NCBI GenBank assembly: GCA_021927905.1
Contig: BLLK01000060.1
Span: forward strand, 310,001-374,000
Length of the DNA stretch: 64,000 bases
DNA from: Chaetoceros tenuissimus
Lineage: Eukaryota > Bacillariophyta > Thalassiosirophyceae > Chaetocerotales > Chaetocerotaceae
Direction: 5' to 3'
The notes beneath the pieces were generated by a model. The model made no database searches and was not told the origin of the DNA. It saw nothing but the letters and a program-made list of their open reading frames with translations. The translations under genes and the position numbers were made by a program. Positions 8,830 to 49,730 of this stretch are shown here, piece after piece (position 1 is the stretch's first letter; every line of letters begins with the position of its first letter).

Positions 8830-9486
8830 GTTGGCATTTGGTGTTCTATTGATAGAGATTCCTTGGTTATGATTTGTTTGAATCCCTTTGCTACCAGCAC
8901 AAAAGGTAAAGTGTACAGGAGAGGTAGTAGAGAGATGCTGAAGAAGCTTTCTTTACAAAAAAATGCCACTTTCTCTCCAAAGAGGAAACCAAGACTATAA
9001 GTACCTGACTATAAATTGAGTTTAGGTATCGCTGATCGCCTATTGCCTTTTGTTACTGTTTATGGCTCATCATTTCTCATCATAAAAGAATGATGGTTTC
9101 TTTTCGTTTTCGTTCTTCTTCCGTCGTCATTCAGCATCATCCTACTCTAGTGAAGGCCCCCTTCTTTCGTGCTATTTGACTCTTATTTTTTCCAATGCTC
9201 CCTCTTGTCTATGAAAATTTTTATTTTCATCAAATTGAAATTATTTCTCATCGCATTTGAATTTGTATGATAGCAAATTGAAATATTGTCAGACATCATT
9301 TAATATCTTTTTTAGAATCATGAAAGTGCATTGAAAGTTGCATTGTTATTAAAGTTAGATCGCATTTGATATGAATTTACAGAACAATGTTTTCAGATTT
9401 CAGATATAAGCAGCAGTCTGTGTAATTCTTATATCATCATTCACATTGCTTTCCTTCTTCATGCGATGAAGCCATTGCAAGGGGAG
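8830..9486. other. Intergenic; 3' region of the ArsM-like gene
   Basis: Contains the 5' flank of the DnaJ gene and, toward 9150-9486, the downstream region of the methyltransferase on the minus strand. It holds the SECIS-like hairpin listed separately. A diverged copy of about 9150-9486 recurs at about 10540-10830. No further gene seen. Confidence 0.55.
9383..9450 (-). promoter_or_regulatory. SECIS-like hairpin
   Basis: Read on the minus strand, 37-104 nt after the terminal TAA. An outer helix AGCAATG (9450-9444) faces CATTGTT (9389-9383). An internal loop follows that ends in ATGAT. An inner 8-bp perfect helix GATATAAG (9435-9428) pairs with CTTATATC (9410-9403), and TGAA follows directly on the 3' side. 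The apical region starts with AA, followed by a possible CAG/CTG mini-helix. An ATGA opposite a GA, a helix of about 9-11 bp and unpaired AA at its top are the defining parts of eukaryotic SECIS elements (form II here). The inner helix is shorter than usual and the T-T mismatch below it is not ideal. Assigned by eye. Confidence 0.5.
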
Positions 9487-10354
9487 TTATAGGGAGGGTC
9501 TCACGGCAACAAAGTCAGATCCTCTTGTTTTCGATGACGTCCAAAAGTCAGTGTACTCAATAAACTTCACTTCTGTAAAACCTACCTTCTCTAAAAGAGA
9601 AATGTAATCACTGACTCGAAGGCACCCAGTTACTCAGCTTGTTGTGGCGTCTCCAATTGTACATGATATTTCAACGTTGCGGTTCTCGTCAACGACGCAC
9701 AAGTCACTCAATAAGAAAATACCCCCTGGCTTCAGTAATTCAAATGCTGTCCGAAATGCATTTTCTTTTTGAGTACATAGGTTTTTAACTCCATTGGAAA
9801 TAACTCTATCCGCAATACTTCTTTGTAAAGATCCAATTTTTGTGCATGAGAACAATTCATCAGGTTGGTCGATACTCTTTCGAAGAAATTGGAAAGAAGA
9901 AGGAAATAGATCTTTCACAGTCTCCGTATATTCTTCGATATTTCTTTCGGCTTGATCAAGCATAGCTTGCGTAAAGTCAATGCAAAATACTTTACCACTT
10001 GAACCTACTAAACCACCAGCCAGAAGTGAGTCAGTCATGTCCAGCACCACATCCTAGATCAACTACCGTGTCTCCTTTCTTTGGAATATACTCATCATTC
10101 GCTATTCGGAGTGGACATCCACTTCCGCAAAATGCCGCAAAAAGATTTTCGATTGAATTTTGTTTGGGGTCCTCCTGTATTCCTGTTGCTAATTTCAGAG
10201 AGCACTTCTTCAAAAACTTTGAGTCATATCCTAAGTTCTCACCACGTGATTTCAGCACTGAACTGCCTTCTCCACCGTTTTCGACATAAGATGTATAGAC
10301 TTTTTTCACTTTTTCTTCGTAGTGAGAGGTGGTTTTATCAATAGATGATTTCAT
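9487..10354 (-). pseudogene. ArsM-like SAM methyltransferase: possible selenoprotein, frame broken
   Basis: Resembles arsenite/ArsM-type SAM methyltransferases. Landmarks are F-C-G-S-G-C-P, then V-V-D-L-G-C-G-A-G-H-D (SAM-binding motif I), G-K-V-F-C-I-D-F-T-Q-A-M-L, S-N-G-V-K-N-L and L-L-K-P-G-G. Two anomalies exist. First, after G-H-D a tandem TGACTGAC (10030-10037) shifts the frame and gives a TGA at 10031-10033; without one four-base unit the frame continues S-L-L-A-G-G-L-V-G. Second, an in-frame TGA at 9634-9636 is followed by 48 more sensible codons (V-T-G-C-L-R-V-S-D-Y ... E-K-V-G-F-T-E-V) to TAA at 9487-9489. That TGA falls where ArsM proteins carry the conserved Cys of E-C-x-S-G. With the SECIS-like hairpin downstream, selenocysteine is plausible. 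Alternatives are a decayed gene or a sequencing error at the repeat. With one TGAC removed, the reading frame is 288 codons including the stop. Confidence 0.7.
10030..10037. repeat. Tandem 4-bp duplication breaking the methyltransferase frame
   Basis: GTCA occurs twice in tandem on the + strand (TGAC twice on the coding strand). Removing one copy lines up the SAM-binding G-A-G-H-D with S-L-L-A-G-G-L-V-G at the spacing usual for the family. Confidence 0.75.
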
Positions 10355-10954
10355 AGATCTAGGCGGAATCTGAATATTATCAGCACTTCGTGTTTCAATT
10401 ACGAGTAAAGTGAAGCTGTGATGGAGTGATGGCTACATATACATGCAGATTGTACCATACCTTATGATGTAATAAGAAGGTGATTCTGAATTATTGATTC
10501 GATTCGTGACATTTGACAAGTGTCCATCTGTGACAAACGAAGGCCCCTACCTTTGGTGACATCAGTCGTGCCATTTGATTTCTTTATCCAATGCGCTCCT
10601 AGTGCTTTTCTACTTATATAGTTCCCATCGCATTTAGAAATGAAAATAAAAATATCTTACTTTAGAATCACGAAAGTTCAAGTGATTGAAAGTTGCAGTT
10701 TACAAAATTTTTATCTACAAGACAATATTTTCAGATAGAAGTCCGTATGGTTACATCCATTTCCTTCTTCGTACAATATAAACACTACAAATTCTGATCA
10801 AGGAAGGGTCTCGTGGCAACGAAATCAGATCCTCTTGTTTTCGAGGATGTCAAAAGTCAGTGTACTCTATACACTTTGCTTGTTGCAAAAAGATTCTTGA
10901 CTGCTGGTACTGTGGTGTGATCATAAAATTATTGTACTACAATCAAGCAAGGAA
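10355..10954. repeat. Degraded duplicate of the methyltransferase 3' end
   Basis: From about 10540 to 10885 the sequence is a diverged copy of about 9150-9560. Shared blocks include a Lys-Thr-Arg-Gly-Ser-Asp-Phe-Val-Ala coding stretch (minus strand, around 10800-10850), a GTACACTGACTTTTG block and A/T-rich downstream blocks such as TTTAGAATCA. The part matching the SECIS-like inner helix is shortened and lost. No intact ORF remains. The methyltransferase 5' flank occupies 10355 to about 10530. Confidence 0.65.
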
Positions 10955-43868: not shown

Positions 43869-44184
43869 ATGCCTTTTATTCACGTCACATGGCTTCCTAA
43901 AGTGAGTTCGAAGAACATGGACTTTCATGTCATCACAAATATAAACCAGACAAAAATGAGAAAGATACTCACTCTTTACTTTTTCTTTGTAGGCTTGCAG
44001 AAATGATAAAGTAAGAAAAGAAGTAGCAACTGCTATCCTCAAAGCTTTGACTGCTCCAGAAATTGCTGCAAAGGCTGATATCCCTCCAGAAAATATTGTG
44101 GTTAGGTTTTCAGAAGCTGTGGATGGATTTCCTTTGCCAAAGGGTCATGATATCACTAATTGCGATGTCATGGAGAAGAAGTAG
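43869..44184 (+). CDS. Tautomerase/MIF-superfamily small protein
   Basis: Two exons, 43869-43901 and 43993-44184; the 91-nt intron begins GTGAGT and ends GTAG. The mature protein is 74 residues: M-P-F-I-H-V-T-W-L-P-K then A-C-R-N-D-K-V-R-K-E-V-A. The Pro right after the initiator Met is the catalytic base of 4-oxalocrotonate tautomerase-type enzymes, and P-P-E-N-I-V-V-R-F-S-E-A matches the second half of the short tautomerase subunit. Such proteins form dimers or hexamers and tautomerise keto/enol acids. The last 34 bases are copied downstream at 46514-46547 as part of a segmental duplication. Confidence 0.78.
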
Positions 44185-44467
44185 AAATTGATAATGTTTA
44201 GTAGAAACAGTGCTACATGTGAGCAAGTGAATGTGACAAAGATGGATTTTTGAAAGAAGCTTGATATGGAACGATAATATCTATTTTAGACTATCACGTC
44301 ATAACAAATCACAACCTCTCTGCTCGCTCGTACTGCCTAATTGTTCTTTGTTATTTGTAACTCTGTTTCGACAAAGAATTAGCTGCTAATTATTGAAGCT
44401 TGATGTAAAACGATATGCCTATTTTAGAGTAGCACATCATCAAAAACCATCTATTCCTACTGCCTAA

Positions 44468-46508
44468 TTATTCTTCTACTATGTCTGCTGTGCTGTGAAG
44501 CTGCATGTTCCACATTTCAGCATACTTGCCATTCTTTGCGAGTAACTCGTCATGAGTTCCTTGTTCAAGAACACATCCATCACCGAGAACGACAATATTG
44601 TCTGCATTGCGAATTGTTCCAAGTCTGTGCGCAATGACAAGACAGGTACGTTCTTGTCCAAGCACATCAAGAGCCTGTTGGATGGAATTCTCAGTGACAG
44701 TATCCAATGCGGAAGTAGCCTCGTCTAATACCACAATTGGTGGATCTTTCAGCAGACATCTATTAGGGAAATGACGGGTGAGTATTGATTCAATAATTTG
44801 TCAAAGGTCAAAAACTAGTCAAAGTCACAAAGCGTCAAAGCATCATATCTCAAGAACTACCAACTCGATTTTGTTCGTTGATGGCGCAATCGAAAGAGGA
44901 GATCAAGGAGAATAATTATATGCAACTAACTCACCGAGCGATTGCCGTCCGCTGCTTCTCCCCACCAGATAACTTCAATCCACGATCACCAACCATTGTA
45001 TCCCATCCCTCAGGCAATGCGCGAATAAATTCGATTAATTGAGCAGATTGAGCAACTTCGTCCAGCTCCGAATCAGTTGCGTCTCTCTTTCCATATGCAA
45101 TATTTGCACGAATGGTGTCATTGAACAAACTCGTAGCTTGTGGAACTACCCCAATCATTTCACGAAGACTTTTTTGGGTGACGGTGCGTACATCAGTTCC
45201 ATTGACCTTGACTGCACCTCCAAGAACATCATAAAATCTAAACAAGAGTCTACTAATCGTAGTTTTTCCGGCTCCTGTAGTTCCTACAACTGCGGTAGTG
45301 GTTCCTTTCTTCATCTTGAATGATACACCCTTCAACCCTTGATGATCGCCTTGGCTAGGATATCTGAAAATGACATTATCAAACTCCACTGCGACATCAG
45401 GATCAGTGACATTGGATCTTGGTAATTCGATAGCGTCGTCTGCATCTACAAGATCTGGATCTTCTGCGAGAAGTTCAGAAAGATTTCTCAAGTCTACCAA
45501 TGCCATTACGACTGCGTTGTATACACTACCAAGGAAGTTGAGTGGCCCAAACAAGTTTAGAGTATACGTCAATACAGCAACGAAATCTCCAATTTCCAGT
45601 CCAGAACATGCCACCTGAGTGGAACAGCATTCAATTAGTTCTGTATTGTAGTCGCAGCCATTCTCTACACAACAATCGAAACGATTCTTCTTGACTCCGT
45701 ATGCAGCTAGGGATAAAGCTGTGGCAAGACATGTCTGCATCAAAACCATTTGTGTGATGTTGAGGAAACTCAAAGATGCTTGCACATTCACAGAGCTTGA
45801 TTGATACTCCTTCACGGATTCGCTGAATCTCTCAATCTCATACTTTTCAGCAGTAAAGTATTTTACCGTCTCAAAGTTAATCAAAGAGTCTGTGCATTTG
45901 TCATGCCAATCGTTATCAGACTTTGCAACAGACTTGCGAAACTTCTTTCTCCACAAAGTGACAACGATAGTCCATGTCATATAAATGAAAACGAAGCAAA
46001 AGATTGTCAACGCCAATGGGAGATAGTTGAAATAACTCGCGAAAATGATGCAGACCAAGATGCATTCAGCAACAGCTGGCACCATCCAGAGAAAAAGATA
46101 TTTCATCAAAGTATCACACGCCAAGATACCTCTGTCCATGGAACGAATAACTTCACCTAGCTTCTTCTTGAGATGCCAATCAAGACTTAGACTGTGTAGA
46201 TGATAAAATGAAACTTCGCTCAATTGAACAAATGCTGCTTGTGCCACTTTAAGATAGACTAGACTTTGACATTCCTTGAGGAAGGTTGATGAAAACTGAA
46301 TCACACTGAAAATGATTGCATTTCTTGCACATTCTATACATGAGGAGAGAAAATAGTGAGTTAGAAATACACGTACGAGAAACTATATTGGACGAAATCA
46401 AAGTATATAGGTACTCACCTGCATAATCAAATTGAGCCAATGCCGTAGATGCCTTCCCTAGGAAAAGAGGTGATGCCAAACTACAACCTTTAGCTCCAGC
46501 AACAAAAA
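44468..46508 (-). pseudogene. Truncated duplicate of ABCB6/HMT1-like transporter
   Basis: Exons 44468-44759, 44935-46333 and a partial exon 46419-46508 correspond exactly to the full transporter at 46837-49730 (shift 2369). The translated parts are identical to that copy, introns included, as far as I compared. The copy lacks the first ~320 residues, including its start codon and the N-terminal membrane domain. At 46508/46514 it is joined to the last 34 bases of the tautomerase gene. It keeps the second half of the membrane domain and the whole nucleotide-binding domain, but has no ATG of its own at a sensible place. Best seen as a non-functional fragment unless a new promoter and start are used. 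Confidence 0.85.
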
Positions 46509-46836
46509 TGACCTATCACTAATTGCGATGTCATGGAGAAGAAGTAGAAATTGATTTGTTTGAGTAGAAACAGTGCTACATGTGAGCAAGTGAATGCGAG
46601 AAAGATGGATTTTTGAAAGAAGCTTGATATGGAACGATAATATCTATTTTAGACTATTACATCATCACAAATCACAACCTCTCTGCTCGCTCGTATTGAA
46701 TAATTTTTCTCTGTAACTCTGTCTCCACAAGGAATTACATAATTGCTATCAGCACTAATTATTAAAGTTTGATGTAAAACGATATGCCTATTTTAGAGTA
46801 GCACATCATCAAAAACCATCTATTCCTACTGCCTAA
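46509..46836. other. Duplicated tautomerase tail and spacer
   Basis: Junction bases, then a copy of the tautomerase 3' end with its TAG, then diverged spacer. Within each spacer a roughly 70-base block beginning AGCTTGAT/AGTTTGAT and containing CTATTTTAGA occurs twice. No separate gene. Confidence 0.6.
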
Positions 46837-49730
46837 TTATTCTTCTACTATGTCTGCTGTGCTGTGAAGCTGCATGTTCCACATTTCAGCATACTTGCCA
46901 TTCTTTGCGAGTAACTCGTCATGAGTTCCTTGTTCAAGAACACATCCATCACCGAGAACGACAATATTGTCTGCATTGCGAATTGTTCCAAGTCTGTGCG
47001 CAATGACAAGACAGGTACGTTCTTGTCCAAGCACATCAAGAGCCTGTTGGATGGAATTCTCAGTGACAGTATCCAATGCGGAAGTAGCCTCGTCTAATAC
47101 CACAATTGGTGGATCTTTCAGCAGACATCTATTAGGGAAATGACGGGTGAGTATTGATTCAATAATTTGTCAAAGGTCAAAAACTAGTCAAAGTCACAAA
47201 GCGTCAAAGCATCATATCTCAAGAACTACCAACTCGATTTTGTTCGTTGATGGCGCAATCGAAAGAGGAGATCAAGGAGAATAATTATATGCAACTAACT
47301 CACCGAGCGATTGCCGTCCGCTGCTTCTCCCCACCAGATAACTTCAATCCACGATCACCAACCATTGTATCCCATCCCTCAGGCAATGCGCGAATAAATT
47401 CGATTAATTGAGCAGATTGAGCAACTTCGTCCAGCTCCGAATCAGTTGCGTCTCTCTTTCCATATGCAATATTTGCACGAATGGTGTCATTGAACAAACT
47501 CGTAGCTTGTGGAACTACCCCAATCATTTCACGAAGACTTTTTTGGGTGACGGTGCGTACATCAGTTCCATTGACCTTGACTGCACCTCCAAGAACATCA
47601 TAAAATCTAAACAAGAGTCTACTAATCGTAGTTTTTCCGGCTCCTGTAGTTCCTACAACTGCGGTAGTGGTTCCTTTCTTCATCTTGAATGATACACCCT
47701 TCAACCCTTGATGATCGCCTTGGCTAGGATATCTGAAAATGACATTATCAAACTCCACTGCGACATCAGGATCAGTGACATTGGATCTTGGTAATTCGAT
47801 AGCGTCGTCTGCATCTACAAGATCTGGATCTTCTGCGAGAAGTTCAGAAAGATTTCTCAAGTCTACCAATGCCATTACGACTGCGTTGTATACACTACCA
47901 AGGAAGTTGAGTGGCCCAAACAAGTTTAGAGTATACGTCAATACAGCAACGAAATCTCCAATTTCCAGTCCAGAACATGCCACCTGAGTGGAACAGCATT
48001 CAATTAGTTCTGTATTGTAGTCGCAGCCATTCTCTACACAACAATCGAAACGATTCTTCTTGACTCCGTATGCAGCTAGGGATAAAGCTGTGGCAAGACA
48101 TGTCTGCATCAAAACCATTTGTGTGATGTTGAGGAAACTCAAAGATGCTTGCACATTCACAGAGCTTGATTGATACTCCTTCACGGATTCGCTGAATCTC
48201 TCAATCTCATACTTTTCAGCAGTAAAGTATTTTACCGTCTCAAAGTTAATCAAAGAGTCTGTGCATTTGTCATGCCAATCGTTATCAGACTTTGCAACAG
48301 ACTTGCGAAACTTCTTTCTCCACAAAGTGACAACGATAGTCCATGTCATATAAATGAAAACGAAGCAAAAGATTGTCAACGCCAATGGGAGATAGTTGAA
48401 ATAACTCGCGAAAATGATGCAGACCAAGATGCATTCAGCAACAGCTGGCACCATCCAGAGAAAAAGATATTTCATCAAAGTATCACACGCCAAGATACCT
48501 CTGTCCATGGAACGAATAACTTCACCTAGCTTCTTCTTGAGATGCCAATCAAGACTTAGACTGTGTAGATGATAAAATGAAACTTCGCTCAATTGAACAA
48601 ATGCTGCTTGTGCCACTTTAAGATAGACTAGACTTTGACATTCCTTGAGGAAGGTTGATGAAAACTGAATCACACTGAAAATGATTGCATTTCTTGCACA
48701 TTCTATACATGAGGAGAGAAAATAGTGAGTTAGAAATACACGTACGAGAAACTATATTGGACGAAATCAAAGTATATAGGTACTCACCTGCATAATCAAA
48801 TTGAGCCAATGCCGTAGATGCCTTCCCTAGGAAAAGAGGTGATGCCAAACTACAACCTTTAGCTCCAGCAACAAAAAACCAAGTACAGATTGCACGTGTA
48901 CGATTCAATAATGCGCTAGAAGCTGTAGCATCTGGCCAAAAATACGGCTTCAAGATCAAAAGAATAGCCCGTCCGAGATGTGCCTTTTTGTTGTTTTTTT
49001 CTTCATCTTGAACCACCATCTCGCTAGGATATCTAAATATTTTAGATTCAACAAGAGCCAAGATAAAGTATGCAATCAAGCAAGTCATGACAATGTAATC
49101 AATCGCAGTGGATCCCGCAGAAGTACTTGGTGGACTTGATACTAGCACAATACAGCCCAACATGGTGATTGCGGTCGAGAAAACAAAACACAATCTCTGT
49201 GCAAAGGAAAATCTCATTCTATTATAATCTCTGATAGATACCCAAAGACCAAAGAAAACTCCAACAGTAGATGCTCCTAATGGCATAGCACTATAGACAG
49301 CATCATTGATGGAGTCATACTTGGTATCACCCTTTGCAATGAAAATAGTCATGACGAGAAAAAAGATGAATGCACATAGTTGAGATGAAAGCGACACTAC
49401 AGAAAGAAGCTTTTCCAATGGAGTACGTTCAATCTGTACTTCAGCTTCTGCTTCTTCTACATCACTTGCTCCTTCATTTGTATTGTTTTCTGCAACATTG
49501 CCGTTGGTAGATTTTTTCTGGAGACTGAACCTGTTGATGCTCAGTCTGCCATCAAATACCTTGGTTGACTTCTTGAGAGATTCTCTGGAGCTAGTAGATT
49601 TATCAAGAAGCTGCTCCTCCTTCTTGTCTTCAGCTTTGGCAGCGACTGCAACAACATCAATTGCAAACCGGAGAATGTTGAAGAAGGCTCCAATGAATGA
49701 CACAATCAATGAATACTCTGGAGCAGTCAT
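46837..49730 (-). CDS. ABCB6/HMT1-like half ABC transporter
   Basis: Three exons: 48788-49730, 47304-48702, 46837-47128; introns begin GTGAG and end ATAG. The product is ~877 residues. An N-terminal membrane domain with about four to five extra helices is followed by the standard six-helix exporter domain ([13 protein letters not shown]-like [12 protein letters not shown]) and then the ATPase. Walker A is G-T-T-G-A-G-K-T-T, the Q-loop follows in V-V-P-Q, signature L-S-G-G-E-K-Q-R, Walker [13 protein letters not shown] and the switch I-A-H-R-L. The extra N-terminal domain and E-T-V-K-Y match the ABCB6/HMT1/ATM-type group that moves porphyrins, glutathione or metal-phytochelatin conjugates, usually in mitochondrial, vacuolar or endosomal membranes. 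A Cys-rich insert (C-C-V-E-N-G-C ... C-C-S-T-Q-V-A-C) lies between two helices. Confidence 0.87.

Follow-up and report, generated by a model that had tools for sequence, protein, structure and literature searches.

The minus strand of the window (the whole 64,000-nt stretch of Chaetoceros tenuissimus DNA analysed here) harbors what is probably the gene of a diatom ArsM-like SAM-dependent methyltransferase selenoprotein, the sequenced copy being apparently disabled by a surplus of 4 nt. The gene is represented by two end-to-end reading frames of one methyltransferase. Frame A (10034..10354, minus strand) starts with the ATG at 10354, comprises the N-terminal 107 codons, ends with SAM motif I (VVDLGCGAGHD) and is closed by a TGA at 10033-10031. 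Frame B (9490..10035, minus strand) covers the rest of the methyltransferase domain with 182 codons counted from 10035 and is terminated by a TAA (9487..9489, minus strand). It contains one inner TGA (9634..9636, minus strand), the proposed Sec codon, which belongs to a U-V-T-G motif and falls on a conserved Cys column. The original prediction located this TGA, the TAA and the 48 family-like codons in between correctly. Its view of 9383-10354 as a single gene does not hold: frame A closes at the TGA at 10033-10031 and the remainder lies in a different frame, a break that had been overlooked. As for the selenoprotein reading itself, the Sec codon at the Cys position, the SECIS and the Sec-decoding diatom are well supported, whereas 4 extra nt upstream of the TGA interrupt the frame.

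The break between frames A and B is caused by a 4-nt surplus within the stretch TGACTGAC (10030..10037, minus strand). Between the Asp of GxGxD and GKV there are 37 nt in the window as compared with 33 nt (11 residues) in the homologues. The 33-nt spacing is found in all 71 readable sequences among the best 80 of at least 500 homologues (the other 9 were unmatched by the pattern) as well as in both genomic paralogues. Serial reading of A and B requires either the loss of 4 nt or a +1 shift, which adds one residue. The frame is interrupted not only by the Sec codon but also within 10037-10030, and no full-length enzyme is obtained from the copy as assembled by ordinary reading. An intron of 4 nt as the cause of the surplus is impossible at that length. 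The surplus is situated outside any homopolymer and forms a direct TGAC repeat. Direct repeats of this kind are typical of genuine slippage, and the surplus is probably a slippage duplication.

It is possible, albeit doubtful, that the gene is a working one and that the surplus is an error of the assembly or consensus, or is present in one of two haplotypes with the other one intact. Apart from the surplus, the frame, Sec codon and SECIS are in order over 289 codons, and the tandem remnant located upstream (described below) has decayed while the main copy has not; both features would suit a working gene. On the other hand, the surplus is not homopolymeric and has the appearance of real slippage. 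Moreover, a single locus of this type was found in the assembly: the search lists only two pieces of the gene and two paralogues (34% and 30% identity, no inner stop), and no second intact copy was found in this assembly, which may have gaps. In the disabled copy, as we prefer to read it, the 4 extra nt after SAM motif I and before the following helix would lead to a stop after 107 residues. Since the post-break sequence otherwise remains in order, along with the Sec codon and the SECIS, the gene was most likely lost recently or is disabled in one haplotype.

The position of the inner TGA was compared with that in prokaryotic homologues, namely the best 80 of at least 500 confirmed stretches from a contig scan of prokaryotic genomes; all 80 were aligned, with the first TGA of each written as Cys. 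The column of the TGA is occupied by Cys in 78 and by an in-frame TGA in 2 of these best 80. Both TGA-bearing homologues (L034 and L035) belong to Chloroflexi, and their frames run on for 119 and 57 codons. A selB match above the curated cut-off is present in both of their genomes, and likewise in 2 of the 14 control genomes. Alignments with ArsM proteins from the PDB (five sequences matched) also cross the TGA, and Cys stands there in all three that were viewed (5evj, 4kw7 and 5eg5). With TGA written as Cys, the column is an invariant Cys in the alignment with four plasmid homologues and two paralogues from the same genome, the identity to these six relatives being 26–34%. These data confirm the initial placement of the TGA at the conserved Cys of ArsM. 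The codon is thus found at a Cys/Sec column with homology on both sides, as in a eukaryotic selenoprotein. A scan of viral contigs with frame B gave no relative among 14 stretches.

The family assignment is looser than had been proposed. No Pfam match was found in frame A, and frame B matches methyltransferase models only. In NCBIfam, where the two frames were scanned apart, frame A gives weak matches to ArsM-type models (NF008823 with 22 bits, NF047649 and NF041537). Frame B matches the models of bacterial ArsM-type selenoproteins (NF041537 as the best with 87.5 bits, NF041536 and NF047649), all below their cut-offs; the curated cut-off of NF041537 (ArsM/AhpD selenoprotein) is 510 bits. The curated cut-off of the ArsM model NF008823 (263 bits) is not reached either, frame B scoring 80 bits and frame A 22. 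Hence the protein is ArsM-like, as predicted, but its definition as an ArsM-type methyltransferase is not borne out by the NCBIfam cut-offs. The Cys-type ArsM proteins (PDB 5evj, 4kw7 and 4fr0, and the diatom paralogue L003) share with the window gene the methyltransferase domain, the conserved Cys column and, apart from the surplus, the spacing at motif I. ArsM carries a further As(III)-binding Cys in its C-terminal part. In contrast to the Cys-type proteins, the window gene has a TGA for the Cys codon and lacks Cys throughout its final 44 codons, past residue 138 of the 182 in frame B (by count of positions). Because the ArsM cut-offs are missed, we infer rather than observe an altered arsenic chemistry, and the same applies to the substrate.

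A quick tree was built from 87 rows, the window gene being represented by frame B only. Here the gene falls beside L038 and L066, both of Cys type, with a branch length of 8.91, and apart from the Sec-type L034 and L035, this placement being unsure. The tree does not support an origin within the bacterial Sec-type clade, with the same reservation about the placement. A separate ArsM-like methyltransferase domain is present in the same genome (L004, G000:C27:351361-351816); it forms part of a frame of 622 codons whose long N-terminal portion is not covered by the match.

The 3' flank of frame B contains a SECIS-type element (9383..9450, minus strand), formed by helix I of 8 bp (9450-9443 / 9390-9383), an ATGA/TGA core, helix II of 8 bp (9435-9428 / 9410-9403) and an AA that opens the apical loop. 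The core includes ATGA at 9440-9437, AA at 9427-9426 and TGA at 9402-9400. The hairpin does begin 37 nt past the TAA, as was originally predicted, with the ATGA, AA and 3' TGA in place. A strict SECIS motif, defined after the element had been seen and not applied to the control genes, has one match in both strands of the window (128 kb). In 2552 shuffled 64-kb strands it gave 103 matches, of which 6 had a helix I of at least 7 bp. When the search was confined to the 150 nt starting at the stop codon, 289,874 shuffles gave 35 matches, and one of these had helix I of at least 7 bp.

A looser AATGA score was defined after the element had been seen and after the hairpins of six control selenoprotein genes had been picked by eye. 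With this score the window has an AATGA hairpin 46 nt past the stop (−16.8), and five of the six controls have one at 43–68 nt past the stop (−14.6 to −23.6); control L009 fails. Thirteen of the 313 AATGA sites of the window, the SECIS candidate included, reach −12.9, which puts the chance of finding such a hairpin at that place at ~0.004 per 36-nt interval. By both motif counts the element is thus above chance. By energy the element is the 5th of these 313 sites with the looser score and the 4th with another scoring, which passed two of the six controls (L010 and L020) and scored L011 at the wrong ATGA. Earlier hairpin scans missed most of the six controls: one was right or plausible for L009 and L011, one for L011 and one for none of the sites adopted later. 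In folding, z is −1.72 and 9 of 200 shuffles fold equally well; the folding energy taken alone is weak support for a SECIS. The Rfam scan of the gene region yielded no SECIS, its four listed matches being far below the cut-offs; one of the sub-cut-off matches lies on the hairpin itself (a trypanosomatid snoRNA, 18.6 bits vs 108). Since no SECIS was detected by Rfam at the six control selenoprotein loci either, this silence is discounted. The 3' UTR SECIS is recognized by its sequence-structure pattern, according to features that were fixed after the element had been seen.

The genome itself decodes Sec. The tRNA-Sec model has 10 matches in it, 5 of them above the Rfam cut-off, and the anticodon is TCA at all three loci checked with ARAGORN. 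The same model matches all 14 control genomes, above the cut-off in 5, so the tRNA-Sec count rests on the anticodons. The matches above the cut-off are located on C27, C34 and C54, two of them ~2.8 kb apart on C34. The search for control genes with GPx, Rdx and MsrA gave seven matches with an inner TGA, and six of them were used. In these a TGA is found at the Sec site of three GPx frames (ASKUG, ASRUG and ASEUG), two MsrA frames (SGUFW and LGUFW) and one SelT (CTSUG). The seventh, the MsrA match L019, was dropped as a control, its TGA codons being at no clear Sec site; no hairpin was found downstream of it in two scans. The AhpC-TSA_2 search gave four matches, all without a stop. Both the tRNA-Sec and other selenoproteins are thus found in this genome.

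Upstream of the gene a decayed tandem remnant is located (10651..10890, minus strand, with weaker likeness extending to ~10566), which is what is left of a second copy, namely its C-terminal end and 3' UTR. In blastn one piece of it has E 3e-24 and the next piece only E 0.01. Its coding end is identical to the gene in 67 of 77 aligned nt (87%) and has a 1-nt deletion. The SECIS core is absent from the remnant: 28 of the 83 positions of the SECIS region are missing, and the flank is less alike. The 77-nt block past the TGA contains 9 substitutions, of which 5 are synonymous (read by hand) as compared with ~25% expected (P ~0.05). On this evidence the sequence beyond the TGA probably stayed coding once the duplication had taken place, although the sample is small. 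A wider coding stretch, which includes the poorly aligned start, has 17 differences, distributed as 3, 6 and 8 over the codon positions.

The broken frame and the adjoining decayed copy could also be expected if the locus were simply a pseudogene derived from a Cys-type ArsM-like methyltransferase, its TGA having arisen by nonsense mutation and its hairpin by chance. The modest z of the fold and the failure of the tree to join the gene with the Sec-type bacterial pair would agree with that. However, such an origin is unlikely. A Sec methyltransferase is known from another diatom according to the listing in PMC2375036, and a SECIS-type hairpin is present at the usual distance. Furthermore, the sole nonsense codon of frame B coincides with the Cys column, where a TGA also occurs in two of the best 80 of at least 500 homologues. 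Besides the TGA itself, 48 codons in the two frames (28 and 20) are one substitution away from TGA, so a random nonsense mutation would rarely strike the Cys column. Highly improbable is double recoding in a live gene, with a +1 frameshift at the first UGA (GAC-UGA-C, 10036-10030) and Sec at the second (9636-9634), both events being perhaps favoured by the SECIS complex: the break does coincide with an in-frame TGA that has C as its next base, a slow stop of the kind exploited by release-factor-2 and antizyme frameshifting, but the shift would give 12 residues instead of the 11 present in 71 of 71 readable relatives (among the best 80 of at least 500), and a slippage duplication of 4 nt is simpler.

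Selenoproteins of this kind have been described before. A SAM-dependent methyltransferase is listed among the selenoproteins of Thalassiosira pseudonana and of both Ostreococcus species (PMC2375036). For diatoms 20–44 selenoprotein genes are given in PMC7539508, the abbreviation list of which contains 'MT', and a figure legend dealing with the selenoproteins of Aureococcus includes 'MTR', methyltransferase (PMC5917014). PMC13188914 lists prokaryotic selenoproteins of the arsenite methyltransferase type that have the UxxG motif. Diatom ArsM is treated in PMC5552862, and a Sec form is not named in the part of that source relevant here. The family of Sec methyltransferases is therefore already known, and the present locus adds one apparently disabled member to it; as the family has been reported (PMC2375036), the gain consists in one more case and a clear test of loss. 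The protein of T. pseudonana and Ostreococcus is likewise a methyltransferase selenoprotein, T. pseudonana being also a diatom, and the likeness is one of description; in contrast to it, the Chaetoceros copy is frame-broken. With the bacterial ArsM selenoproteins (NF041537, NF041536 and NF047649) the gene shares the UxxG motif, here U-V-T-G, and in the two TGA-bearing bacterial relatives the TGA occupies the same column. The window gene differs from these bacterial families in being far below their cut-offs and in having a 3' SECIS of eukaryotic type, and it is not joined with L034 and L035 of the bacterial Sec type in the tree.

In a working form of the gene, ribosomes would decode the UGA in the position of the conserved active-site Cys as selenocysteine, and the insertion would be directed by the 3' UTR SECIS together with the Sec-tRNA of the cell. 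The predicted product is a methyltransferase with a selenol in place of the thiol of its relatives. If Sec is inserted, such replacement at the conserved Cys would tie the selenium supply to the methylation of metalloids or other substrates in diatoms. If the break is real, the locus would represent the loss of a Sec gene in one lineage with the Sec signals still legible.

Elsewhere in the window a tandem duplication of ~2.36 kb (44151-46508 and 46514-48877, 98.4% identical) repeats a minus-strand ORF of 483 codons. The genome contains 11 silicon-transporter matches, which mark it as that of a diatom. Three of these lie at G000:C17:442278-446357 and are listed with one 1459-codon frame; a single TGA and a single TAG interrupt the third.
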